Source: Limanda limanda (taxonomy: Eukaryota > Chordata > Actinopteri > Pleuronectiformes > Pleuronectidae). Taken from it: a stretch of DNA of 64,000 nucleotides. The notes below the pieces were generated by a model. It had not been told where the DNA came from and made no database searches. It saw only the letters and a program-made list of their open reading frames with translations. Each line of letters opens with the position of its first letter. Position 1 is the first letter of the stretch. A program made the translations under genes and the position numbers. The stretch covers positions 11,379,393 to 11,443,392 of the forward strand of contig NC_083656.1 of assembly GCF_963576545.1 (NCBI RefSeq), read 5' to 3'. Positions 14,501-59,855 of this stretch are shown one piece after another.

Positions 14501-15165
14501 GGATTCGAACCGGGAACCTTCAGGGCCACTTATAACTGGCCCCTCTGTCTAAAGTGTGGCCCCTGATTCAGAACCATCCCAGCTCCGCCACTGCTTTGAC
14601 ACCACCACACCCGTCCTACCTTGAAGTCCCTGCTGTGCTGAGGTGTGTACTCAAAGGTCCAGAGAGCCCGCACCAGGCCGGACAGCTGCTCCGTCACCTC
14701 CCCGGAGTCCTGCTGCTGCTGCTGCTGGCCGGCCCTCCTCAGCACCAGCACCCCGTTGGGCTTGGCCTTGTCCCCGCTGTTGCTGCTCGTCTCCGCCCCT
14801 CGGAACTGCTCCAGGGCCAGGTACTCGGCGAACAGCTCCGTGTTGCTCAGGCACTGGAGGATCGCGTTCATGAAGCAGGTGTTGCCGTGGTTCTTGAGCC
14901 CGGCCACCCCGGGCACCTTGTCGCCGAAGGGGAACCCCCCGCAGTCGCTGTCGTCGGACGGCACCGACCCCCCGGTGGTGCTCGGCAGGAGGCTGGAGTC
15001 GTCCTTGTCGTCCTCGGCGGCCTGCTCGTCGGTGCTGAAGTGGGACAGGGTGGACAGTGTCCGGAGGACTCGGTTCATGAAGCTGCCCACGGAGCGCACC
15101 GAGCTCCTCCGGAACAGCTTCTTGCTGAAGGATTTCTTCTCCTTGCTGCTGACAACTTTCGACAT
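2525..15165 (-). CDS. usp31: usp31, ubiquitin carboxyl-terminal hydrolase 31
   Basis: A cysteine-protease deubiquitinase of the USP (C19) family that removes ubiquitin from proteins; the human orthologue has been linked to NF-kB signalling. I join 16 exons: 14620-15165, 10662-10799, 10377-10465, 9262-9354, 8871-9006, 8426-8576, 7997-8177, 7198-7309, 6996-7090, 6505-6582, 6274-6403, 5301-5420, 4978-5203, 4418-4576, 4155-4307, 2525-4068. They total 3951 nt, or 1316 residues, close to human USP31 (about 1350). The Cys box (GNTCFMN, catalytic Cys near residue 97) is in exon 1. QHDAQEFLLWLLDRV is in exon 2. Zinc-binding CxxC pairs occur in exons 4 and 12. The His box (HGTMQGGHYT, His near 696) ends exon 13. 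The last exon encodes about 515 Ser/Lys-rich, low-complexity residues, typical of the USP31 tail. The start is the first ATG before the conserved KSFSKKLFRR segment. USP43 is the nearest alternative, but both ends match USP31 better. Confidence 0.93.
10800..13733 (-). other. usp31 intron 1, mostly non-coding
   Basis: Most of the first intron of usp31, between the exon 2 acceptor near 10799 and the repeat that begins at 13734. It is AT-rich. I see no supported exon, RNA gene or complete mobile element in it. Confidence 0.6.
13734..14593. mobile_element. candidate hAT-like non-autonomous element
   Basis: The two ends are imperfect inverted repeats: CAGGGGCAGATCCAGGG at the left, and CAGTGGCGGAGCTGGGA read inward from the right. 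About 860 bp lie between, without a transposase frame. The CAGTGGCGGA-type terminus is common in hAT elements. I cannot see a convincing 8-bp target duplication. A tRNA-like B box (GGTTCGAATCC on the minus strand) lies near 14500, so a composite with a SINE fragment is possible. The right end is about 26 bp from the exon 1 splice donor of usp31. Confidence 0.4.
14237..14272. repeat. perfect 15-bp inverted repeat (hairpin)
   Basis: GCTGAATATATACGT and its exact reverse complement flank a 6-bp loop. It lies inside the hAT-like element in usp31 intron 1 and is probably part of that element. Confidence 0.7.
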
Positions 15166-28898: not shown

Positions 28899-32388
<3,490 letters not shown>

Positions 32389-44514: not shown

Positions 44515-45468
44515 TTTTTGCTGGAGGTTTTTTAGAATCATGTCTGCAACTCCTTTCACATTCAATTTCTAGTTATTGTGATGTGAACTGCATTTACCTC
44601 CAGGCGTCTCGCAGCCATAAAACCTTCTACTTGGCTCGAGAACAGCACAATAAATACTTTATCACACTTAGACACTGTTTTGGCGTCTCAACGCTCCTCG
44701 TTAAAAACACAACAACTGTGTTTCATCCACTTTCCAGGAACTCTGCATCTTTTCAATTTCACATCGAACGTCGCCGGGGATAGATTTTTGCCTCATCACG
44801 TCATCAGACGAAAATTGAATGGCCTTTTATCTAATTAGTTCCCTGGGATCTGCAGAGCGTCTGGGAAATGCATGCACGGACTGAACAGATTTCCCACCGG
44901 AGGGCAGATCTTTCTGTCCTCACACATCTGACCCCGACAGATAAGAGGCCCACCACTGGTGATCTGGCCAAAGCATGATCAGTCAGACTGCCATCATGTC
45001 ACCACACACACACCAAGACACACAGTGTTAGTTTGTACCTGTGATCCCAGACGAGCAGCGTGGATCCTAGAGGATTCTGTGAGTTTTTCTCGGCTGAGTA
45101 CAGAGGAAGCAAAGTGACTGACAGCTCCTTATGCTGGATGTGAGCAAGTCATGGAGCCCTCACCTCCTCTGATGGAGTCTTAAAAAACCCACCCCCCGAC
45201 AGAGCCAAAATTGGGGAGGGTGCAGAGTGCTCCTGGCATCTGAGGTTAGAGGGCGGGGGGAAAGGGAGCTGGATGGGTTAGGGGAGGTGGGTTTGGCCTA
45301 AGAGGAAGGTGGGGGCCGCTAAGGAGAGGAGTGGGGAGCAGGACAGATGCACATTCTGAGAAAAAGCTGGGTGGGGTGGAGTGAAGGGAGAAGAGGGGGA
45401 GACCTGAGGTATGGCAAGCCGATTGAGCATTTATTCAAAATCCTTGATATCAAATTTCAGTCCCCTCC

Positions 45469-46071
45469 ACTAGTTCGGTCTTTGTCTGCACTAGTTGGAC
45501 GTTTGGTCGCACTAGTTCAGCATCTTACTGAACTAGTTGAAAAAAAAATCTAACTAGTCACTCTTTTTCAGCAACTAGTGGCACTTTTGGTCAACTAGTT
45601 ACAACAGAAACCTTACTAGTAACACTGTGCGCTGCACTAGTAGAGCCAAAGTCTCCACTAGGGGGCTTTTTGCTGTACTAGTGGCCCTCTGGACCGAACT
45701 AGTAAGGCTGAAAGTGTTACTAGCTAACAAGTGAGCTGCAAAAGCTCTGACATGTAAGCTAGTCAAACATGGATTCAGCTCACTTGTTAACTAGTGGCCT
45801 CCAATTTGCTGCAGTAGTTAACTAGTGGGAGCCCAAATGCACACTTGCAAACTAGTGCAGCCAAAATCTTCACTAGTTAACTAGTTAACACCTTTTTTGC
45901 ACCTTGCTAGCTAACTAGTGAGGTGCAAAATGTTTACTAGTAAGCTAGTGGGCTTGAAATGTGCAGTAGTTTGCTAGTTGCAGTGTTTTTTGACTGTACG
46001 AGCTAACTAGTGAGGCTGTAAGGGCTTACTAGTATGCAAGTGGCAGCCAAAATGCCTACTAGCTCACTTGT
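45469..46071. repeat. left ACTAGT palindrome array, helically phased
   Basis: Site starts in the outer part: 45469, 490, 511, 532, 553, 574, 594, 615, 636, 657, 677, 698, 719, so steps of 21 with two of 20. From 45719 inward the sites come in pairs offset by 8 bp (45719/727, 750/758, 782/790, 813/821, 843/851, 872/880, 906/914, 936/944, 965/973, 998/46006, 46028/036, 058/066) at steps of 29-34 bp. The pair consensus is the palindrome ACTAGTTAACTAGT. Spacers are not repeated. Likely multimeric binding sites for the element's integrase or another DNA-binding protein. Confidence 0.93.
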
Positions 46072-46088
46072 TACACTCCTGGACACAC

Positions 46089-46171
46089 ATGCAAATGAGG
46101 GGATTAAAATCGAAGCTTCCTATTGGCTCTCCAGCAAGAGCTCCACCCAGCAGAAATTTAACCCTATAAAG
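46089..46171 (+). promoter_or_regulatory. promoter-like cluster in left TIR
   Basis: Octamer ATGCAAAT at 46089-46096, inverted CCAAT (ATTGG) at 46122-46126, and TATAAA at 46165-46170, oriented inward. The mirror copy in the right TIR faces the integrase gene. No gene is evident directly downstream on this side. Confidence 0.6.
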
Positions 46172-46535
46172 CCTGATGAGGTTTCACTGCTGTGAACGGC
46201 CAGCTCCTTGGTTACTATCCAAACAGAATAAAGCACGTACATGTGTGTGTGCGTCAGATTCATTATTTTTTTTGAACAACAATGAAACAAAGGTGAAAAT
46301 GTTTTAGCACTTATTCTTATTTTGAACAGATTCCTAATAGATGTACAGAAAAGTCAAATCTCAGCTCTAGATGAACATTATTAACAGCTTAATCAAAATA
46401 TCCAATAAATCGTGGTACTTTACAGAAAACACTTCAAGTCATAATCTATATTCAATCTAATAAGTGACAGGGTTTTCAGTCCGTGAATCCAATAGTTTTC
46501 CCTCCTGCCTCTTTGAAAATCCCACATCAGTAAAG

Positions 46536-46603
46536 TCCATTTCAATTATATTCTGCTGGCATTACAGGCGCCTGTACTGCCTGCAGAATATAATTGAAAT
46601 GGA
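46536..46603. repeat. 68-bp near-perfect palindrome, left TIR
   Basis: Centred on GGCGCC at 46567-46572. Outer arms TCCATTTCAATTATATTCTG pair exactly with the mirrored sequence; only a few central-flank positions mismatch. It could form a cruciform or RNA hairpin. A counterpart lies in the right TIR. Confidence 0.9.
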
Positions 46604-46940
46604 TACAAAAAAATTATCTGAAGGTGCAGAAATTATCCAAATACAGGAATATTCCATTGTAGGCCCACTGAAGGTATAATGCTATTATATTATGAATAAC
46701 TAATCTGATTTTATTTGGAGGTCAGTGTATGTTGATCTGCTGCAGTATTTGCTATCGCCAGTAGATGGCAGAGTAGATTTTCTTTACTACTTTTCAATTG
46801 AAAACTTGTATTATACAAATGAATAAGGAAATGACTAAACTAGTGATAATACAATACTGTGTTCATAGGAATTACACATCTGTTAACATCCAGAACGCTA
46901 TTTCATATATCTTAGGATGTCAACCATTTACTGTATCATA

Positions 46941-47697
46941 AAACATGAGCACACATGAGCACTGCTTCCATTTTTAACCTAAGGAGTAGTATAACCACCC
47001 ACCAAAGGGGGGCGCACTATGCGTTTTAGCAAATGGAACCCCCCACGAACAAGAAGCCCTTTTCTCCTAGGATTTCTTCATGATACCTGAAGGTCCCGGA
47101 TTTCGGTATGAGATAACATTAAACACTCGAAATATTAACATAGTCTACCTGTTATTATACTAATAAGGTTATTTTTTAACTAGACGTCCAACTTGAGAGT
47201 GTCAACGGAAGTGATTCCATAGTTATCTGCTACTGAAAACTCAGGTGAGTGAGCATACAAGTAGTCACTGCTAGTCACGATTAGCATCATGCTAGCGAAC
47301 TATTAGCATCATGCTAGCGAACGTGGGCAAGAACTAATACTGCTGTTAAGATGCTATTTGAAAGATTACCTCTTTAAAACCAATCGGAGTAATAATATAG
47401 TGATTATTAATGTTACAACGAACTTTAGGCAGCCTGTTAAAATAGTATGCCACTAAGTGTTTAAGGTTCAGCCACGCAGCTTATGTTAAATAGCAAATAG
47501 ATATGGTTTAATATGCAAGTGCACTGCAGGTGCATATAATTTGAAAAGCCAATTCATATGTGAATGAAGTTCAAGTTATACTGTGAACTATTGTCATGTT
47601 TAGTTTCAAGTATAGTGACATGATATTGTAATGATGTTATCATATAACATATTAATGAAAAAGGATAAGCCCTTTGTTTAGTGACGTGCAATAGTCA
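46941..47697. other. unique left segment of the transposon
   Basis: Non-coding sequence between the left TIR and the internal array. It includes a short tandem duplication (22-bp unit with TTAGCATCATGCTAGCGAAC) at 47281-47322. No gene seen. Confidence 0.6.
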
Positions 47698-48293
47698 ACT
47701 AGTTGCGTACACATGTCGACTAGTGAGCAGTTTTGTCCAACTAGTGAGATGATAAACTCAACTAGTGGGCCCAAAATGTCAACAAGTTGGACAAATAGCC
47801 CAACATGTCGATCAAATGTCTTACTAGTTGCGTACAGTCGTTCACTGGTTCTGAGTACAGCTCAACTAGTTGAAGAAAATGCCCAACATGTAAGAAAAAT
47901 GTTCAACATGTTCGGTCAAAGTCCCTACATGTTCTGTTCAGAGTCGAACTAGTGAGACAAAATGTCTTTCACTAGTCACCTAGTCAGGGAAACATCAGTG
48001 TCACTCGTTAACTAGTGGCTCTTTTTGGACCTTACTAGTTAACAAGTGAAATAATGTGACTGTAACTAGCTCACTGGTACGGCAAAAAAAGACCCTAACA
48101 AGCTCACTAGTGGACTTTTAGGCTTCACTAGTATGCAAGTGAGCCATTTAGAGCCTCATCAGTTAACTAGTAAGGTATAAAACAACCTCACTAGTTTGAC
48201 TAGTGGACAATTGTGCCTCACTAGTTAACATGGAAACTGCCAATGCAGCCACTACTGAGCTAGTGGGGCGCAAATGTCCACTAGTTAACAAGT
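47698..48293. repeat. internal third ACTAGT array
   Basis: Single sites start at 47698, 719, 740, 761, 782, 803, 823, 844, 865, 886, 906, 927, 948: the same step order as the terminal array (21x5, 20, 21x3, 20, 21x2). Pairs offset 8 bp (once 9) follow at 47971/979, 48003/011, 034/042, 065/073, 098/106, 127/135, 158/166, 190/199, 220/228, 251/259, 280/288. Several sites are degenerate (ACATGT, ACAAGT, ACTGGT). The spacers do not resemble those of the TIR arrays. It has no inverted partner inside the element and lies about 0.7 kb upstream of the HECT start codon. Confidence 0.92.
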
Positions 48294-48300
48294 GGACTGT

Positions 48301-48370
48301 AAGCAAATGAGGCAGGCGGGACAAGGATTTTGATTGGTCAGTGTTCAAACTGTGTTTCAAAGCCTTAAAG
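48301..48370 (+). promoter_or_regulatory. putative HECT-gene promoter
   Basis: Immediately inside the internal array: octamer-like AAGCAAAT (48301-48308), ATTGG (48333-48337) and a TATA-like CTTAAAG (48364-48370). These have the same order as, and similar spacing to, the cluster beside each TIR array. It points toward the HECT gene ATG at 48983. Confidence 0.55.
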
Positions 48371-48982
48371 TGCCAGCTCTGAATAGTTGCTTCAGTTTTA
48401 GGAGCACTCATTTCAGGAGGTGTGTTCATAAGTTTTATTGTGTTATATTATGAAATGCCAATTAAATGAAAGCTTTGTGGAAGATTAAATGTCCAACAGC
48501 TTAATGCACACATGAGAAGCAAAATTTATGTAACATCAATATTATATTTATACTGACGTCTGTAAATACACACTTAAATATATTTCCCATATTATAACAC
48601 TCATTCTTGCCAGAAGTGCCTTTTGATTACTTAATGCTTTATGTACTAATTTCTAGATTTTTACAAGATATTAGAATATCTTGTAACTGAAATCTAACAA
48701 TGTTTCACATCCAGCCATACCAGTTAATCAATTGAATCTTGTACCACTTTATATTATATTGATAAGTCAGATGGACAGATAGATCTTGATTACCATATTA
48801 AACAATCAATCATGATGCAGCACTTGATTCGTAATTTCGACTTCATTATTCTGATTATATCCTTATATAGCACACTCTGCACATATTGAGGCTGAAGGGG
48901 CTTTTGTGCACATTTACATGGTCAAATATAGCCAGAAGGGGGCGGCAAAAACACAGAGCTTGAAGGCAGGTACTCTGTTATC

Positions 48983-49475
48983 ATGAGCGGGACATCTCAG
49001 GACAATCCTACTGACAGTAGTTTTAATACAGTTATTAATCGAGTTCTAAACGCGCTTGATACTGCGAGACGGGAACTGGGTTCCCGGAGGAACGAGGACA
49101 ACCTGCTGTCAGTGACTAGAAGCACGTTTCGGAGGCGGAGAAGAGCAGGCCACATGGCAGGTAAGTTTAGGCTAACTGTTACCTAGCATTCTAAAAGTAG
49201 GATTTGTATCAGTTTAAAACGTTTACTGAGTTCATTTCAATATTGTCCTTTTCACTGTCACTTCTAACTTTCAAGTGGCTTCTGAAGTCATTATGTAAGG
49301 TGTTTTTCACGACCTGTTAGAGCTAGAACAGTTAGCTAGCGTTAGCATTAGCTTGCTGTTCTAGCCTAAAAAAAGTAATGTGGTGATGGGAGAAAACTTT
49401 ATCGTCATTTCGTTATCAACGTGCGCGATAGAATAGGGAGAAAAGAGAAGTAACAGCGCACCCACAGACCCCATT

Positions 49476-49557
<82 letters not shown>

Positions 49558-52500
49558 GCGCGAACGTTAGAGACTCAGAGAGGAGCAGAGCCCTAGTGGT
49601 TATATGAATGCAATACTGGATCATATTATCATGGGAATACTAATATAACTTTTGGAGAAGCTCCTCTTTCTTATCACCACATGAATATGATAACTTGATT
49701 ATACAGTGCTTCAAGGGGGACAAGCTTCTTGATGTCAGAGGGGTTTTCAGATTTTTTTTGTAGTTATTAAATATGAGGTGCTGTACTGTCGACAGGGACA
49801 TAACAGCAGAGAGAATACAACCTATCATATGACTAGTAACATGTATGTCTGGGGCTCAGACATAAGAAAATGGTCATGCATATGTTTTCTCCTGGCCAAA
49901 CTGTACTCAGCGAAGTAAAAGTGAAATTAAAATTCCTAATTTCATATAGGTGCTACTGGCAAAGTTGTATAACCACATTGTTTTTTGTACAGAAGCATCT
50001 GCAAATAGGACACCCGGTCTTTGGCGAGTAAGGCTCTTCCTGCTGCAAAATGCAGACCAAGCTGTCCTTCCCTCATACACCGAATGCTGCAAACTAAGCA
50101 CAATCGGCTTAGGTAACGTTAATGTACACACTCTGTTGATATTTATGTGAGCATGAACTTCAATCTTATTTATTTATTTAAACAGGAATTGTACTTCCAT
50201 CAACAGCTGATCTGCAAGTGTTGGATATAAAGTGTATTTACATCTCTTTGGCCAGTGTGCAATGTGAAAAAACAATGAAAGGCACTAATTTGCTGCAAGA
50301 GATAAATGCATCAAAATGCATATCAGAGTATAAATATATAAAACCTCAGCCTACGTATACGTACAGTCTTACATCTTTAAAGTGACATGATTTCATTATC
50401 CCATTTATCTTGCACGTATAGTGAGTGACTAATTTGGTCAATCAAACACCGTAAAAATCCAAACAATAAATTTGATCATGAAGCCCTTGTTGTGTATATA
50501 GCACAGATATTGACATCATGTGCTCAATACATAACAAATAAACTTATTTATAGAGCACATTTAAAAATGACAGAAGTTGACCAAAATGCTTTACAGAGAT
50601 AAAAAATAGCTTGAAGATAATAACAATCGAACAAATATATAAAACACTGAAATGATCACTGATCAAATTGCGGCACAAGCAACAGATAAAATACCAAAAT
50701 AAAAAAGCCAGGATGTATTCAAGTAAGTCATTGTGATGACAATCTGAAGGCTAAAGATAAGAGATTGGTCTTAATACAGGTTTTTAAAGACATCAATGAG
50801 AGATCTAATTGTTAGAGGCTAACAATTCCACAATTTAGGGCCAACACGGAAAAAGCCTGATCACCTATGGTTTTTAACTTTGTGAGTGGAATGGTAACTG
50901 TTGAGTGGTCAGTGGATCTTAGGGGGTGAGGCGAAATAGGGGATGAGTAGTTCATTGGCAGGGCCAAAGGTTATGACTTAAGTTTGGTTGAGCTGAAGGA
51001 CATCCTCAATGCAATTTAAAGTGGAGTTCACACAGCATGGCTCACCAAATATACAATAAGGCTTCGATTTAACTGTTAGTCAATAGCTAATAAGACACAG
51101 TACTTTGATTCAGTATATTGACATCATATTGACACTTTTTTTTTTTTTTTTTTTCCAGGTGGCCCGAGTCATGTGAGTGTCCTACAACTATCATGGACCC
51201 TTTCCGAATTAAACAATTACATTTGCCAGAGCTTTCCAGCAGTCAGCCTCAATGTAATTGGATTTCAGCTGGCAAGAGCTGATAAGAGCAGGGTACTCAC
51301 AATAATTCAGGCAAATACATTGAAGGAGCTGAAGGCAGTTGTTGGAAGAAGCCGGCTTTATATAATTCCCCAGGCAAATATAACAATGCCTGTACAGGTA
51401 AGATTTTGTTGTTCTTTTTGGCCAACACTCCTTTTGAATATTAGCACCTTGATAATAATGACTAATTAGGCCCTTTGTTTTGTCCATCTAGGTCTCAGAA
51501 GCTGAAATCAGTCTACCAGGTCCATCCCAATCCGCCGCATCAACATCAGCCATCACACCTCCGGCCTCACTCCCTGTCCCTCAGGTCACAGAACCTGTTC
51601 CTACTGAGCCTGATGGAAGCTCATCACACGTAAGTTATTGCAAAACAATAATATATTTTAGGGCTCCAAACTGCGACCATATTTTTTATGACTAGGTCAT
51701 ATATCATGTGAAACACCAGGAAGGAGCGAGGGGTTGATACCGAGACCTGGTATTAAAAGGGTCCTGGGGCTAAATTATTAAAGGTTAAAATATGATTGTG
51801 TAGAGGGAAAAGTTAGTCTGGAGCCCTTTATTTTGAATGTTGTTTTGATTATTCATATTAAAGTAAAGAGCAATCTTAATGTTGAAGAGTGGGTTAAAAA
51901 GCCATCTGTTCAATTTTCAAATCTAACCTCAATAAAAGACAGTTGGAATAAATGCTAAATCTTGTCAATCAACAGGAGGCAAGTTTGGATCCATCAGAGT
52001 GGCTAAATGCTGGGACCCCAGAAGTAAGAATCTGGACGAATATACTGTAGTTAAATTTTTCTTCAAATGTGGTATTAAATATATTATTCAAATATTGATG
52101 TGTTTAGATATTATTATTTCATGCAGTCTTTGTACTTTCAAGGTGTTTTATAGAAGATCAAGGGTGGCACCACTGATCAGGTACAGTATATTCAAGTTTA
52201 CAAAGTAGAACCATGTGTGACACTTCTTTTTCCACCCATAAACACTGTCAATACTCATCTACTACATATATTTTACAGAGAGGTTTGAAATTAGTTTTTG
52301 ACAAGCCTGAATATGTAATACTGACACTTTGAATGAACAAAATCTGATTTGTTTAGTACTCCCATCAATGACTTCCTCATGGACTCAGAGGATGGGGATG
52401 AGGACGAGGACGGGAGTCTTTCAATTCCCATGGAAAGTGACGGTCCTCCATTGGTAAGTTTTATTTAATTTTGTGCATTCAAGAGTAGTGGTAGGTTTTT

Positions 52501-55060
52501 TATTAAAGAATTTTTCATTACATCCACGTACTTACAATGAAAAAAATTGTATATTGCCCGTTTTTTCAATGATGCATGATGTACTTCATACATTTTATAT
52601 ACTTTAGGAAGAAGTGGATCTTGGAATCTTTTTGAATAAATACCATGAGGATCACCTTTGTGGTGGCCTGGGATCCACCATCTCCATCAGGAGGAAGAGG
52701 CTTCTGGAGGGGGCTATGAAGGCCATCTCCAGAGTCAATTTCTCTTGGACACACTCACCTCATATTGAGTTTGTGGGAGAAGAGGCTGATGACATGGGGG
52801 GGCCACAGCGAGAGTTTTTCAGGTCTGAATACCTCAAGTAATTTATTAAATGTAGAATAATTTTTTTTGCATGTTTTCAGGTTAACTGCACAGTAAAACA
52901 AATTCTTATATTTCTCTTTTCTGTTGATTTCTTCTAGACTCTTGATGATAGAGGTTCAGACCTCTCTGGGAATTTTTGAGGGAAAGGCCGGCCAGGTCTT
53001 TCTCGCTTATGATCAGGCAGCATTGGACCAGGGGAAGTATTATAAAGCTGGCCAACTGATCGCCTGGTCTGTTGCCCACAGATGTCCGTGCCTCAAAGCC
53101 CTGGATCCCAGCCTCTTTCTGCTGATGTGTGGTCAGGATCCCCAACTGGACCAGTTTGACTGGCATGTGCTGCCTGACCCAGAGGTCCAAAGCAAAGTTG
53201 AAAGGGTGCTTATTATCATGTCAAGATTTATTGGGATTTAAAACCAAAAATTTGTTTTAAACTTCTGTTCAAAGTTGACAAAAGCATTAAACAGCGTTTA
53301 TACTAAATGACTACTGCATGACAAATAATTGCTCAATCTGAAACTCCAGCAACATTGTTCTCACTCAGATTTCTCTCTAAGATACAACAGTGCAAGACTG
53401 CAGGGGACCTGACTGCACTTCAGCAGGAATTAGGTGACTGGATCGCTGAGTGCGGCGTCCCAGGGATATTCAGTGCATCATTAGCAGACATCCCAAGAAT
53501 CTACTCCTATGTGGTGAAGCACTACATCTTCCTTCGGTAAACGCATACACAAATGAAATAAGCTTTATTGTACAACACAATAGTAGTCAAAAAGCATTGT
53601 GACTTGGTAATATTCAGAAGTTTGGAATCAGTGAGAAATGTTTATACATGTATTTGTTCATTTGGGACAGAGGTTAATACTTTTTTTATTAACCTATTAT
53701 TTAATTATATGTACGTGTTATGTCTCTGTTGGTTTATAGAACGGCCAAGATGATCCATCAGTTCACTGATGGAGTGAATGCGTTTGGGCAACTGTGGGAC
53801 ATCGTAAAGGCAAACTGGATAGCGTTCCTGCCGTTATTTACAAACATGCAGGAACCGTTATCCAAGGAAGCCTTTAAGGCCATTTTCCTGTACAGCTACA
53901 GCAGTAGTGGTAGCAACGATCGTGATGCAGAGGAGGACACCATCTACTGCTGGGAGATGGTGCTAAACAAGATTGAATGTACATTGTATTCCTTTGGGAA
54001 AATTGTGCGGCAATAATTAGGAAATCTTATCAAAATAAATTACACAATACATTAACATAAAGGCACACTTGAAATGTACTATGAAAGATGGCAAATATTC
54101 ATAGTATAATTTGGGGAATTTTTTCAGATTTCTAACAATGCAAGTTATGTTATGCCAATGTAGCCAAAGCCATTAGAGCAATGGCAACATTAAAGTTTTT
54201 ATGTCATCAACTGTACCTTTTGTGTCAAACCTGAACTGTAAAGCCTGTCATGTTTATGAAGCCAGAACGAGACTGCAGGTCCAGACCACACTGCATTGTG
54301 TCCGGGTGCACAATGACATGCTGGAAACAGGGATATATTGCTGAACTCAGGTTTATTCCTGTGATATAACAAAAGAAGCTAAAAGGCTGTCACATGGATT
54401 TATCTCTTCCCATCAACACTCCTAACGCAGTCAAATACAGCGCAGACTGATGAGAGACTGAAACTTATGTGGTACATACTCCAACCCTCAAAATAAAAGC
54501 TCAACGTTTGTCAAAAAATTACAAAACAAAAGTAAAGAAATGCAAATTAATACTATACTCCCAATACCAAGAAAAAGTAACGTAAAACTGGTGAAAGATT
54601 TTGGTTTCAATTAATATTTATTAATTAATATACATTATAAAACTACACAAACCATAAGAACATTTTTAATTACTGAGGTTACTTACTATCTGTTACATTC
54701 ACATAACCTACATTTTTGAGAAAGGGCTGGCATGAAATATAGTCTTGTTAGACAATCGATTTTATACATGAATGCAAATGTTACTTATATTTTACTTTTT
54801 TCATGGCAGACAAAGAAAGTGAACTAACCTATGAAGAGCTTCTAATCTTCATAACTGGAGCGGATGAGGTTCCGGCGCTGGGCTTCACAAACAAGCCCAG
54901 CATAGACTTTTTCCGGCAAGAGGAAGGCCAGCGTCGGATGCCATATGCATCAACTTGCATGATGTGCTTGTACCTGCCGAGAGGCATCACGGAGGAGGAG
55001 GAACTCCACCAGATGCTTTTTCAAGCACTTCGGGAATCGATGGGATTCGGCAAGGTTTAG
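48983..55060 (+). CDS. transposon-borne HECT-type E3 ubiquitin ligase
   Basis: Twelve exons: 48983-49160, 49993-50112, 51159-51397, 51492-51629, 51976-52023, 52143-52180, 52357-52453, 52608-52822, 52938-53205, 53382-53536, 53740-53978, 54810-55060. They total 1986 nt, or 661 residues, with no stop or frame conflict. The C-terminal half (about 300-655) is a HECT domain: DDMGGPQREFFRLL at its start, TGADEVPALGF, then RMPYASTCMMCLYLPRG, whose TC cysteine (about Cys628) is the expected thioester-forming residue. Before it are an Arg-rich N terminus, a Pro/Ser/Thr-rich linker and an acidic stretch (DGDEDEDG). HECT ligases accept ubiquitin from an E2 and pass it to a substrate. The closest familiar proteins are the multicopy fish G2E3-like HECT proteins. 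The substrate is unknown. Confidence 0.9.
49479..49555. repeat. (TC)n microsatellite in HECT intron 1
   Basis: Uninterrupted TC dinucleotide tract of about 37 units. Confidence 0.97.
50531..51010. repeat. LINE 3'-end-like repeat in HECT intron 2
   Basis: Contains TTATTTATAGAGCACATTTA, CAAAATGCTTTACAGAGATA, then AGGTTTTTAAAGACATCAAT, CCACAATTTAGGGCCAACAC and AAAAAGCCTGATCACCTATG. This phrase order is typical of fish non-LTR retroelement 3' ends. It would be an insertion into the transposon's own intron, made after the intron existed. Family and ends not determined. Confidence 0.5.
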
Positions 55061-55091
55061 TAACTTTCAGGGAGTAGTTTCATAATTTGTT

Positions 55092-55590
55092 AAAGAGTTG
55101 TGTGTGTTTGTTTGCTTGTTATGGTCACTAATAATATTACATGTTAACAATGTTCTGTTCATTGATAAAGTTTTGAATCTCCCTAGCACACACCTGATAC
55201 TTTTCCTTTAAATTTGTTGTTGCATCCATTGCATTCTGCAGTTCCTGCTGTTGTTCAAGTTTTGTGTGTGCTTGTTTGTTTATTATGCTCACTAATAATG
55301 TTTCATGTTAACAATGTTCTGTTCATTGATAAAGTTTTGAATCTCCCTAGCACACACCTGATAATTTTGCTTTAAATTTGTTGTTGCATCCATTGCATTC
55401 TGCAGTTCCTGCTGTTGTTCAAGTTTTGTGTGTGTTTGTTTGTTTATTATGCTCACTAATAATGTTACATGTTACTAATGTTCTGTTCATTGATAAAGTT
55501 TTGAATCTCCCTAGCACACACCTGATACTTTTCCTTTAAATCTGGTGTTGCATCCATTGCATTCTGCAGTTCCTGCTGTTGTTCAAAGCT
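55092..55590. repeat. three tandem copies of a 164-bp unit over the integrase 3' end
   Basis: ATTGATAAAG recurs at 55161, 55325 and 55489, exactly 164 bp apart, with the surrounding sequence. The unit includes the last 40 or so integrase codons (QQQELQNAMDAT) and the stop. The copy nearest the gene is used; the other two are extra copies in the 3' UTR. It lies between the convergent stop codons of the two genes. Confidence 0.92.
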
Positions 55591-57779
55591 TAGGTTATTG
55601 AGTGGTGGTGACACAATAACTGCTCGTTCAAGATCTTCGCTATTCGCTTGTAACTGGGCAAGCTGTATGCCATGTCTTGCCAAGCCAGCTTCCAGATTTT
55701 CTTGGCTGTAAGGGTTATCTCCAAAGATGTTGTTGAGAGCTGTAGAGTCCTGCTCACTGTTGGCTAACATGCCCTCCATCCAAATTTGTGTTGGTGTATG
55801 GTTGTGAGCCGATCTGAGTCTATGGTTGTTCCAAGCGCGTCGGAAAAAGTCTAGACGTTTTTGGATTTCTGGCTTATACACTATTTGTAGTGCCATTATC
55901 TGAGTGTTACATTCAGGATTCAATATTTGTTCATCTTCAAACGAATGGAAAAGTGTGTAGAAGTAGTGCACAACCTGCAGGAAAACATCTCTCCAAAGAC
56001 GTTCAATACGTTGGTTGTGCACCGACCGGCCTGTAATGTGCCTTGCATGTCCACCTTGTCCCTGCAGAAGGTTCATTAAAAGAGCAACCAGAGTGTTTTC
56101 CCCTCCGTGGTCTGATCTCACTCTGGAGGGTAACCCATAAAGGCAGGTGGCTCGAACAAAGTATGTCACAACTGTCAAAGCTGTGTTATCTGTGCTGCAG
56201 TTGATGTAAGTTATTAGTCTGGAGTTCCCGTCAATACCAGCATGCGTCACAAACCCCCACCTGTAAAACAATGGGGGGAAAAAGAATAATGGTTTACCTC
56301 ATTACCTGTAAACAATTTTTACATTTTCACCAACAGATTCATAATAAATAAAAATGTTTTGGATGAGAAAAGATTGAGATTAAGAAAGTGGAAGAGGAAG
56401 GTGAACGAGGCTGGATTTGAAGAGGTCATATTACGTAAGAGTTGTACTTTAAACGCATGCGCAGTGAAATTGAGTGGTCACTAGCCATCCAATATGGCCC
56501 CTAATACTCCCACCAGTAAAAGAAATGCAAGAGCTGACCCCTGATTACCGAATTAGACGCATATGGCCATCTATGTGCCACAAACTATTCGGGAATGGCA
56601 CATAGTATGTTCTCCTTGCCACTGTCTGGCTCCATCTCTGGGCTGCAGCAGCTGGATCAATGCGATTGAGGGTCTCTCGAACTCTTCTTCTTTGTACCAC
56701 AATCCCGTCGGCATGCAGGTATGCCCTCATCATCTGAATGGAGTTCATAATTAAAGACAATTAGGATACAGCACATTTGTTATATAAGTGATACACATAA
56801 CACCTACAAGCGAATATGTTGTAGAATGCTTACTTCTGAGCCTGATCTTGGAAACAGGCTGTGGAGTCTCCTGACGTGCTCCTCCAGGTTATCATCACTA
56901 ATGGGAGTGAATCTCTTTCCCACTGAAAGCTGAAAAGACCTCATTTTTTTATGCAGGTATGAGGAGGAACAGCCCAACATCCTTGCCATGGCTCTCACTG
57001 TAAAGCCTTGAGTGAGAAGCAGCTCAATTTGCTCCCTTGTAATGTCCAGGGCAGGTCTCCCTCGTCTTCCTAAAATAGGGAAATAAAACAATTAAGGAAT
57101 ATCAATAAATGAATGATCACTATAATAGGCTAATTTAATTAAACATGTCATGAAGCCCAGACGAACAAGGACAAAGTTGGTTTGCTGTACCCCCTTCCTC
57201 TACCACAAATATTGTAATTATTCCACATCTTTTGTCTTCCTAAACACTCCAATTTTCCCAGGTTCAAGTTGAATTCACAATATGTCCTCAGCAAAGCCTG
57301 TATGCCCAGTAGTCTAGCTATATGTTAATGCATTTTAAAAGAACGGGTGATTAACAGAGTGGTCTATGTTGTATACTACAACAACAAAATATCAATACTA
57401 TGCACACGTGGGGATGAGGTACGTATTTCATTTTAGCATCCCTTTCTACTATAAAATCAAATGAGTCCATATCTGACGAACAGAGACAGTTAAATATTTG
57501 TACATAAGTCAGCCTACCTGTATGCAAACGATGCGCTGCATGGGAACCAACACGGAGTGCATTGGATGCTGACGGCGCAGCAATGATATCTCTGAGATTT
57601 GTGAGACTCTGAAATATACCCTGCATAGCCTCAGGGCTAATATTAACTTCAACTCTTCTCAGGTTAGCAATAGAGTTGTCGATAGCATGCACTTCTCTGC
57701 GACCTGCAGATCCTTGGTGATATGCTTGTTCGATTGCAATACATCGTCTTCTGATACGTCTCAAGACGGCGTCCACCAT
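55465..57779 (-). CDS. rve-type (DDE) integrase/transposase
   Basis: Four exons: 57518-57779, 56834-57069, 56549-56733, 55465-56260. They total 1479 nt, or 492 residues, with no frame break. Residues 1-87 are Arg-rich and helical. Residues about 90-135 form a helix-turn-helix (GRPALDITREQIELLLTQGF, MARMLGCSSSYLHKKM), as in resolvase/transposase DNA-binding domains. The catalytic core follows with Asp221 (WHIDGH), Asp278 (RSDHGGEN) and Glu314 (NQRIERLWRD). The last two are separated by 35 residues, the D,D-35-E spacing of retroviral and IS3/IS481-type integrases. This enzyme should cut and join the element's ends. It is transcribed inward from the right TIR and converges on the HECT gene. There is no zinc-finger or chromodomain, unlike many LTR integrases, and no reverse transcriptase nearby. 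Confidence 0.9.
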
Positions 57780-58227
57780 GTTAAAACCAGATTTTCGTTT
57801 TAAACTGAGGCAAGTTTGGTGGGGGGTCTTGCAGCTGGTGGTTAGGGTGTAGGAAGCAGAGTGAAGGTGATTAGCATATGAAACAGTACATGGTTGACAT
57901 CCTTAGATATGTGAAATAACGTTCTGGATGTTAACAGATGTGTAATTCCTGTGAACAGTGAACACAATATTTTATCATTAGTTTAGTCATTGCCTTATTC
58001 ACTTGATATGGCAAGTTTTCAATTGAAAAGTAGTAAAGAAAAGCTACTCAGATAATTTACCACTGCCACCTCCTGGCGATAGTAAATACTGCAGCAGGTC
58101 AACATACACTGACCTCTAAACATAAATCAGATTGTTGTTCATAATATAATAGCATTATACCTTCAGTGGGCCTACAATGGAATATTCCTGTATTTGGATA
58201 ATTTCTGCACCTTCAGATAAGTAGGTA

Positions 58228-58295
58228 TCCATTTCAATTATATTCTGCAGACAGTACAGGCGCCTGTAATGCCAGCAGAAAATAATTGAAATGGA
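58228..58295. repeat. 68-bp near-perfect palindrome, right TIR
   Basis: Same length and GGCGCC-type centre as the left copy, with the inner mismatches on the opposite side and one extra arm change (GAAAATAATT). Palindromic character has survived in both TIRs. Confidence 0.88.
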
Positions 58296-58329
58296 CTTTA
58301 CTGATGTGGGATTTTTTTAAAGAGGCAGG

Positions 58330-58760
58330 TTTTGACCTCTGGACACTCCCGAGTCTCCCGAGTCCTGGGACTATAAAAAACTTGAAATATCAAAACATGA
58401 ATGGAGGAGGGGGCTGTATTGTATAGACCTGTTGTTAGGTTTCTGTTAATATGAGCCCTTCTACTAAAGTCGATGCTTTATTATGAAATGACTGGAGCGT
58501 GCCCAATAAAGTGAATCACTTCCAGTTCAGGTAAACACTGATGACGGCTGCGTGCGTTATTCCTCCGTGAAAGCAGGATATCGCTGCCCGGTTATTCAAC
58601 CCTCAATGGTGGCAACCCTAACACCTGCACTGTGTTTAGTGATGATCATGTCAGTGCAGTTTGTGCTGCTGCTGTGATGCCAGTAATTAATATCGGTATT
58701 GAGACGGTATCACTCCCCTCAACAGGAGGAAGCTTGGACGTTTCCCTTTCCAGTAAGAGG
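58330..58760. other. 431-bp block present only in the right TIR
   Basis: The left TIR jumps directly from AGAGGCAGG to AGGGAAAAC. The right TIR has 431 bp between the equivalent points, bounded by short similar words (GAGGCAGG, AAGAGGAGG). A microhomology deletion in the left TIR is simpler than an insertion with no duplication. No coding potential recognised. Confidence 0.8.
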
Positions 58761-59095
58761 AGGGAACACTATTGGATTCACGGACTGAAAACCCTGTCAC
58801 TTATTAGATTGAATATAGATTATGACTTGAAGTGTTTTCTGTAAAGTACCACGATTTATTGGATATTTTGATTAAGCTGTTAATAATGTTCATCTAGAGC
58901 TGAGATTTGACTTTTCTGTACATCTATTAGGAATCTGTTCAAAATAAGAATAAGTGCTAAAACATTTTCACCTTTGTTTCATTGTTGTTCAAAAAAAATA
59001 ATGAATCTGACGCACACACACATGTACGTGCTTTATTCTGTTTGGATAGTAACCAAGGAGCTGGCCGTTCACAGCAGTGAAACCTCATCAGGCTT

Positions 59096-59175
59096 TATAG
59101 GGTTAAATTTCTGCTGGGTGGAGCTCTTGCTGGAGAGCCAATAGGAAGCTTCGATTTTAATCCCCTCATTTGCAT
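59096..59175 (-). promoter_or_regulatory. putative integrase promoter in right TIR
   Basis: On the minus strand, inward from the array: ATGCAAAT, then ATTGG, then CTATAAAG near 59096-59103. This is the mirror of the left cluster. It lies about 1.3 kb upstream of the integrase ATG, so a leader intron may exist. Confidence 0.6.
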
Positions 59176-59192
59176 GTGTGTCCAGGAGTGTA

Positions 59193-59795
59193 ACAAGTGA
59201 GCTAGTAGGCATTTTGGCTGCCACTTGCATACTAGTAAGCCCTTACAGCCTCACTAGTTAGCTCGTACAGTCAAAAAACACTGCAACTAGCAAACTACTG
59301 CACATTTCAAGCCCACTAGCTTACTAGTAAACATTTTGCACCTCACTAGTTAGCTAGCAAGGTGCAAAAAAGGTGTTAACTTGTTAACTAGTGAGGATTT
59401 TGGCTGCACTAGTTTGCAAGTGTGCATTTGGGCTCCCACTAGTTAACTACTGCAGCAAATTGGAGGCCACTAGTTAACAAGTGAGCTGAATCCATGTTTG
59501 ACTAGCTTACATGTCAGAGCTTTTGCAGCTCACTTGTTAGCTAGTAACACTTTCAGCCTTACTAGTTCGGTCCAGAGGGCCACTAGTACAGCAAAAAGCC
59601 CCCTAGTGGAGACTTTGGCTCTACTAGTGCAGCGCACAGTGTTACTAGTAAGGTTTCTGTTGTAACTAGTTGACCAAAAGTGCCACTAGTTGCTGAAAAA
59701 GAGTGACTAGTTAGATTTTTTTTTCAACTAGTTCAGTAAGATGCTGAACTAGTGCGACCAAACGTCCAACTAGTGCAGACAAAGACCGAACTAGT
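59193..59795. repeat. right ACTAGT palindrome array, helically phased
   Basis: Exactly the same length (603 bp) as the left array and its reverse complement with few substitutions: outermost site 59790, innermost pair ending at 59193. The outer single-site section has 20-21-bp steps and the inner section has 8-bp-offset pairs. Some sites are changed (for example the left ACTAGT near 45880 corresponds to ACTTGT here). Confidence 0.92.
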
Positions 59796-59855
59796 GGAGG
59801 GGACTGAAATTTGATATCAAGGATTTTGAATAAATGCTCAATCGGCTTGCCATAC

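Follow-up and report, generated by a model that had tools for sequence, protein, structure and literature searches.

A tip-anchored ladder of helically phased palindromes in a flatfish IS3EU-type transposon: a candidate loading array for an element-encoded protein

Introduction

Why should a DNA transposon carry a long ladder of short palindromes that is kept nearly to the base pair in its spacing, whereas the sequence between the rungs has drifted to randomness? This question is raised by a 64,000-nucleotide stretch of the Limanda limanda genome (NC_083656.1, positions 11,379,393 to 11,443,392; hereafter the window, which is part of contig C21 of the 717-Mb assembly that we searched). A preliminary description had noted ACTAGT arrays near one end of a putative mobile element. 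Our comparisons lead us to propose, with a probability of roughly one half, that these arrays serve the cooperative multi-site loading of an element-encoded, sequence-specific dimer, which would function in end recognition and in promoter control. A long array whose base-pair spacing outlives the spacer sequence, and whose register to the cut end persists while the rung sequence changes between families, would illustrate selection on DNA geometry with unusual clarity. It would also open to direct test how long ends are found and paired by a DDE transposase, and it would provide a natural series of phased arrays for studies of cooperative loading on vertebrate DNA.

The terminal array

The array has two modules. 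The first one (45469..45724) consists of 13 single ACTAGT sites, the first of which is centred 62.5 bp from the transposon tip. Their CTAG cores start at 45470, 45491, 45512, 45533, 45554, 45575, 45595, 45616, 45637, 45658, 45678, 45699 and 45720, and the steps of 21, 21, 21, 21, 21, 20, 21, 21, 21, 20, 21 and 21 bp are exactly those described before. The hexamer is exact in 11 of the 13 singles, and the other two end in G or C. In the second module (45719..46071), CWWG-type sites form 12 pairs with an internal offset of 8 bp. The pairs, typically CACTAGTTAACTAGTG, start at 45720, 45751, 45783, 45814, 45844, 45873, 45907, 45937, 45966, 45999, 46029 and 46059. Number, internal distance and the step of about 31 bp had been claimed in the preliminary description and were all located (steps 29-34 bp, mean 30.8). 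Several pair members are degenerate (CAAG, CTTG, CATG, GTAG, CGAG), and the 13th single doubles as first member of the first pair.

Such an arrangement is not expected by chance. The window contains 69 ACTAGT sites, compared with a mean of 16.3 and a maximum of 25 in 100 shuffles, and the longest CTAG ladder with 20-22-bp steps comprises 13 rungs, as opposed to 3 in 1000 dinucleotide shuffles of the terminal repeat region. Ladders of all other palindromic 4-mers and 6-mers in the window have at most 3 rungs, with the exception of ACTAGT itself, which reaches 9. A genome-wide search for three ACTAGT sites spaced by 20-21 bp gave 359 occurrences, compared with 36 for the reversed control pattern, and among the matches listed (contigs C1 to C3), those with letters shown are by eye copies of the arrays of this transposon family, with the exception of an apparently unrelated tandem repeat at C2:12379354. 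The window also contains a degenerate 15-bp repeat, TACTATACTACACTA, in about 16 copies (31283-31521), for which we saw no connection with the ladder, as well as open frames that match the ubiquitin carboxyl-terminal hydrolase UCH (14530-15165) and the MSS51 C-terminal domain (30173-30712), each a host gene or a fragment of one.

As to helical phase, two earlier statements hold in part. At 10.4 bp per turn, the singles are in phase with R=0.98 and hence share one side of the helix, as had been claimed for all sites, but the two members of a pair do not, as their offset of 8 bp corresponds at this period to about 277 degrees and places them on different helical faces. The pair starts fit 10.3 bp with R=0.84, in this array and in the internal array described below, and the pair step can thus be read as three turns if the period is slightly under 10.4 bp, but not at 10.5 bp, where the phasing of the terminal pairs is poor (R=0.20; internal array 0.53).

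The element and its superfamily

The array is part of an IS3EU-type DNA transposon of about 14.4 kb with the termini TATGG...CCATA (45410..59854), which was delimited by its inverted repeat arms, its tip and termini, and family copies with 6-bp duplications elsewhere in the genome. Inverted repeat detection gave the left terminal inverted repeat (45410..46506, plus strand; the arm was called from 45409, one base beyond the tip) and, together with a ladder scan, the right one (58758..59854, minus strand), which mirrors the ladder of the left end. The 1098-nt arms are 100% complementary after rounding, at least two differences being visible between the ends. Between tip and ladder lies a TTGATATCAA palindrome (45444..45453, hand-counted) with its centre 39.5 bp from the tip, and its core GATATC recurs as a rung core in the related family B.

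The element carries two genes. A HECT-type ubiquitin ligase gene (48932..55060, plus strand) ends in a C-terminal HECT exon (54752-55060, PF00632, E=3e-12), whereas its extent and its other exons were assigned by eye. An integrase-type transposase gene (55465..57902, minus strand) is composed of the open frames 57351-57902, 56804-57091, 56545-56760 and 55465-56298. Two of these four frames match PF24764, ‘Integrase core domain’ (E=1.2e-76 and 1.1e-6), the first frame and the HTH frame match family B, the rve profile matches weakly (E=0.0076), and the catalytic D, D, E residues were recognised by eye only. The HTH exon (56804..57091, minus strand) contains the candidate DNA-binding domain, which matches HTH_38 with E=1.1e-4, under the curated Pfam cut-off, and is helical in a predicted model of low confidence (mean pLDDT 62). 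A PDB sequence search with the integrase exon gave two weak matches to interferon gamma, which we regard as chance. Three tandem 164-bp copies (94% matches, 55087-55586) extend over the end of the integrase frame and repeat its sequence.

According to the portions of the literature drawn on here, IS3EU elements have TA..TA termini, in a fungal set TAYGG..CCRTA (PMC10045372, PMC12730594). The termini TATGGC...GCCATA fit this pattern, and identical 6-bp flanks, i.e. target site duplications, were found in 8 of 12 matched end pairs of the family; as 3 of these 8 sit in CA or CG repeats, where matching is cheap, 5 are informative. The window copy has no target site duplication (flanks CTGAGG and CTATGG). 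With TA..TA termini, 6-bp duplications and an IS3/rve-like DDE transposase, the family belongs to the IS3EU superfamily, whose published descriptions share with it, in the sections used here, the TATGG..CCATA termini, the 6-bp family duplications, the rve-like integrase and an oppositely oriented second gene. The second gene is HECT here but an alpha-kinase in the fungal TET-bearing IS3EU elements of those sections, which, in contrast to what we find, mention no phased palindrome ladder.

An internal array with the same spacing

A further array lies upstream of the HECT gene (47698-48293) and had been missed in the preliminary description. It follows the same two-part plan, with 13 singles (47698..47953; ACTAGT, ACATGT, ACAAGT and one ACTGGT), whose series of 12 steps is identical to the terminal one, and 11 pairs (47971..48293) with a mean step of 30.9 bp. 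When terminal and internal array are set in register, the cores agree at 66 of 78 positions, but the spacers only at 61 of 194 (31%), which is the chance level (30% after random re-pairing, P=0.43). That both ladders have their two 20-bp steps at the same places in the series suggests that they derive from one ancestral ladder. Between their rungs there are 0 net indels, whereas at least 9.5 would be expected if the ratio of 336 substitutions to 24 net indels in the old terminal copies is applied to the 133 differences, a figure that precedes saturation correction. Given common descent, the spacers are randomised since the divergence of the ladders, while the rung spacing stayed free of net insertion or deletion. 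It is this maintenance of placement, while the letters in between drifted to randomness, that suggests a protein reading the ladder. In comparison with the 8.2-kb copies described below, a 1.1-kb segment together with the other half of the internal array was apparently lost at 47689-47693, with a 5-bp overlap.

Could the ladder simply be a functionless by-product of tandem amplification, left by the multiplication of a 21-bp unit with later decay of the spacers? Even spacing is what amplification would leave behind, and TRF finds a weak 21-bp similarity at 45468-45518. However, spacer identity is at the random level within the terminal (0.30) as well as the internal ladder (0.38), so that the array is, as described before, no simple satellite, and sites and spacings survive where the spacers are random. 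Arrays in viral contigs offer a comparison: the three-site pattern occurs in 79 contigs, and among the 60 of 79 listed, runs do not exceed 7 sites, spacer identity is at least 0.6 in 49, the other 11 (below 0.6) are all runs of only 3-4 sites, and the 7 runs of at least 5 sites have spacer identities of 0.87-1.00. We regard these viral arrays as probable coding or simple repeats and not as relatives; searching the viral contigs with the integrase yielded a single stretch but no confirmed relative. As the core columns of the singles, moreover, change at less than half the spacer rate in old copies (see below), functionless amplification is a very improbable origin of what is seen today.

The internal ladder also indicates what may be read. 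Around the centre of its sites, A, C, G and T are each present in 13 of 13 rungs, whereas only 7 of 13 retain the central TA step, the others having AT, AA or, once, TG instead. The terminal rungs keep their first five bases, TA included, in 13 of 13 cases and the last T in 11 of 13. The outer bases AC..GT of the internal rungs thus seem to be what is recognised, with a deformable WW centre that is tolerated. This bears on the main rival explanation, nucleosome-type wrapping, in which the ladder would act as curved DNA or as a signal for nucleosome positioning. TA-centred palindromes at every second turn, with A/T-rich spacer centres in between, would then produce a 10.4-bp alternation by which the DNA is wrapped in a fixed rotational setting, and ends and promoters would be kept in ordered chromatin. 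CTAG and TTAA are classical nucleosome positioning cores, and positioning sequences show a phasing of about 10 bp, as far as covered by the consulted part of PMC2880596. Both motifs are present here, together with a W/S alternation at about 10 bp around TA-centred sites. In contrast to such sequences, however, the outer A..T is fixed here and the TA step, the least kept part of the internal site, is replaceable, which disfavours a signal based purely on TA steps.

Conservation in older copies

To align copies and compare sites with spacers was the check that the preliminary description had proposed. Of 13 regions fetched from the same genome, one (L122, 97.7-100% identical) is young and was excluded, and the other 12 loci provided 14 array segments (BLAST pieces 66.7-93.5% identical). 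In the terminal singles, 54 of 927 core positions mismatch (5.8%), compared with 288 of 2121 spacer positions (13.6%; Fisher P=6e-11, which is indicative only, as the copies share ancestry), and core mismatch is below spacer mismatch in all 14 aligned segments. The terminal pairs show no such difference, with 80/712 (11.2%) in cores and 118/973 (12.1%) in spacers (P=0.59). Short repeats inside the termini that are conserved above their own spacers are hence found in the first module but not in the second, and the expected contrast between sites and spacers is confirmed for the singles only. The internal array, for which two loci provided three old segments, shows a weak tendency in the same direction, with 13/181 in cores and 46/429 in spacers for the singles, which is not significant (P=0.23), and 25/256 and 54/351, respectively, for the pairs.

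The claim that only position and site are kept therefore applies to singles and spacing, but not entirely to the spacers, as their A/T-rich centres also change slowly. For A/T columns, change rates are.039 in the core,.200 in the flank and.067 in the spacer centre; for C/G columns, they are.081,.162 and.119, or.081,.152 and.066 without CpG. There are thus two quiet zones per two-turn unit, the palindrome and an A/T-rich spacer centre half a unit away, and the spacer centres are W-rich by composition in both ladders (z=6.3, 24 spacers). These W-rich and slow-changing centres would fit chromatin wrapping. Outside the array, in the tip and a short stretch after the array, A/T columns change at.111 (48/432) and C/G columns at.052 (12/230), compared with 23/584 and 26/320, respectively, in the core columns. 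C/G in the core is therefore no slower than in the tip region, whereas A/T shows the opposite, and this counts against the loading explanation, although the tip region is likely under constraint itself.

A second family with a tip-aligned ladder

Searching the genome with the integrase revealed 43 matches that fall into several families. The integrase of family B is 58% identical to that of the window family, and one copy with a tip (TATGGCAAGCCG...) was found (L135); a second copy agrees to 99% but is without the first 51 bp. In this family, the palindromes AGATATCT and GACTAGTC/GACTAGGC alternate in steps of about 21.4 bp, and the rungs still include ACTAG sites. The sites are centred 62.5, 83.5, 126.5, 147.5, 169.5, 190.5, 211.5, 276.5, 297.5 and 319.5 bp from the tip, with R=0.996 at 21.4 bp for these ten; an out-of-step eleventh at 367.5 bp was excluded. 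Three rungs are missing or degenerate, so that 13 rungs are counted with the gaps. The 11 sites in 420 bp compare with a mean of 0.29 and a largest value of 3 in 2000 shuffles. The first two rung positions are identical to those of the window family, and later positions drift by up to 7 bp. The ladder lies between the cut end and the transposase gene, the ATG of which is 437 bp from the tip, and the HTH exons of the two families are 52% identical, with a very similar stretch LGCSSSxLxKK.

With the same step series in two ladders, the absence of net indels and a tip-aligned ladder in family B, the earlier claim that the phasing is under constraint stands. For the loading model, family B speaks in both directions. 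It supports loading in that its ladder starts at the same distances, shares the HTH and lies between tip and ATG, but two alternating palindromes would hardly be read alike by one HTH, which counts against this model. TA-centred rungs (GATATC, CTAG) in family B as well would fit chromatin wrapping, whereas a 13-rung ladder that is locked to the transposon tip should not be needed by a nucleosome, and on balance we consider chromatin alone a rather unlikely explanation, although wrapping of nucleosome type may act together with protein loading.

In families C, D and F, a scan for exact palindromic 6-mers and repeats detected no ladder in the 3.5-5.0 kb read upstream of the integrase from a single copy of each, the ends not being located, so that ladders may not be a general feature. 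L138, which we regard as a decayed relative, has no array. Near the IS3EU-like integrase of family C, there are two related repeats (L136:1071-1370 and L136:3837-4125), in which sites of the type CAGTAGTG/CAGTTGTG/CATATG occur at 23, 30 and 51-53 bp and both of which are followed by ATTCTGAATAATGTCCCTCACGGCCCCTCATA. About six 21-bp units with the near-palindrome TTTCAACTGAAA (L136:3710-3835) form a true tandem repeat, as their spacers are alike.

Promoter-like strings and a possible role in expression

The terminal array is followed on the plus strand by a promoter-like string (46089..46170) with ATGCAAAT (46089), ATTGG (46122) and TATAAA (46165), and the internal array by another one (48304..48370) with CAAATGA (48304), ATTGG (48333) and TTAAAG (48365). 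The positions are pattern matches and the function is putative; the two strings are weakly similar (local score 24, shuffle mean 17.9, P=0.04). As each array, in both terminal repeats and inside the element, lies directly upstream of such a string, we propose a promoter role. End recognition alone would not be sufficient, since one array copy is internal and lies upstream of a gene, and promoter control by the same protein would be the simplest addition.

Alternatively, a palindrome-binding host transcription factor could have been captured, the arrays being an enhancer for both genes. That the arrays adjoin promoter-like strings, one of them inside the element, fits this idea, and a non-terminal array is better explained by regulation than by end recognition. 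However, an enhancer does not need to be fixed to the tip, as the ladder is in two families, and the rung sequence differs between these families, which makes a captured host array improbable and, in our view, slightly more so than chromatin wrapping. One candidate is the p53 family, whose half-site consensus is RRRCWWGYYY. It was rejected, as in the single sites a purine is found at -3 in only 7 of 26 cases, at -2 in 15 and at -1 in 26.

Proposed mechanism and comparison with known systems

How could cooperative loading work? A dimeric DNA-binding protein, most likely the transposase with its HTH domain, would read ACWWGT by contacting AC..GT across a deformable WW centre. One dimer per two helical turns, beginning about six turns from the cut end, would assemble into a cooperative filament on one face of the DNA, possibly aided by the flexibility of the A/T-rich spacer centres. 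Both transposon ends would be marked and paired by this filament in the terminal repeats, and the same filament may set or repress the expression of both genes, transposase and HECT. Near the promoters, the pair module could represent a second, looser binding mode. In a more far-reaching and clearly speculative version, the ends of IS3EU elements would be defined by a ruler: about 13 tip-anchored palindromic rungs, each two turns from the next, would carry a long wrapped filament of a self-encoded protein. Rung sequence would be replaceable in evolution if the spacing holds, and the ruler would have been copied to inner promoters, so that a single structure would count rungs at the ends and switch the genes; we find this unlikely.

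Repeated subterminal sites as such are known from several transposons. What appears to be new is a long ladder that is anchored to the tip and the spacing of which outlives the spacers and, between families, even the rung sequence. Among the literature matches listed for IS3EU, GingerRoot, HECT and subterminal or palindromic elements, titles and abstract starts contain no phased palindrome ladder. An analogue is IS607 TnpA, which binds helically phased motifs as a filament: in the IS1535 end complexes of this family, phased motifs about 20 bp inside the end, a cooperative filament and end pairing resemble our proposal, but the protein is a prokaryotic serine recombinase and the four 9-bp motifs are direct and lie about 20 to 60 bp from the end (PMC6188088, in the sections used). 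Here, by contrast, 13 palindromes at 21 bp plus 12 pairs extend over 600 bp, and the enzyme is a DDE integrase. The hAT transposon Hermes also has multiple short transposase-bound sites inside its termini, the exact phasing of which is said to be crucial, but their arrangement differs between the ends and forms no regular ladder in the excerpt considered (PMC10368747). Galileo/Foldback elements share long terminal inverted repeats with repeated transposase (THAP) sites, the first about 70 bp from the end, but of the three sites described in the part of the report used, two lie within long tandem repeats, and there are no two-turn steps (PMC3688188).

A plasmid-like maintenance or replication array on an extrachromosomal form, similar to EBNA1/oriP or to iterons, would be yet another type of multi-site array. 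The family of repeats of EBV oriP has a spacing of about 30 bp. The dyad symmetry sites of EBNA1 are tandem dimer sites 21 bp centre to centre, as in our singles, but on the viral episome there are two sets, each with two sites, according to the text available from PMC3798644. The integrated copies of our family have target duplications, and no replication protein was found among the scanned open frames, which are part of all frames; a replication array is hence highly improbable.

Gene-free derivative copies

Among the 12 regions read, three (L123, L127 and L130) are gene-free near-palindromes of 8.2 kb that carry all arrays in the order terminal array, inverted internal array, central pairs, internal array, terminal array. 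In L133 and L134, most of one internal arm is missing, and rearrangement has gone further in L126 and L131. Given the young age of these copies, they show what is carried and not what is selected. In the derivatives of about 8 kb, the two internal arrays are placed back-to-back with their promoter-like strings facing each other, and convergent transcripts are therefore possible.
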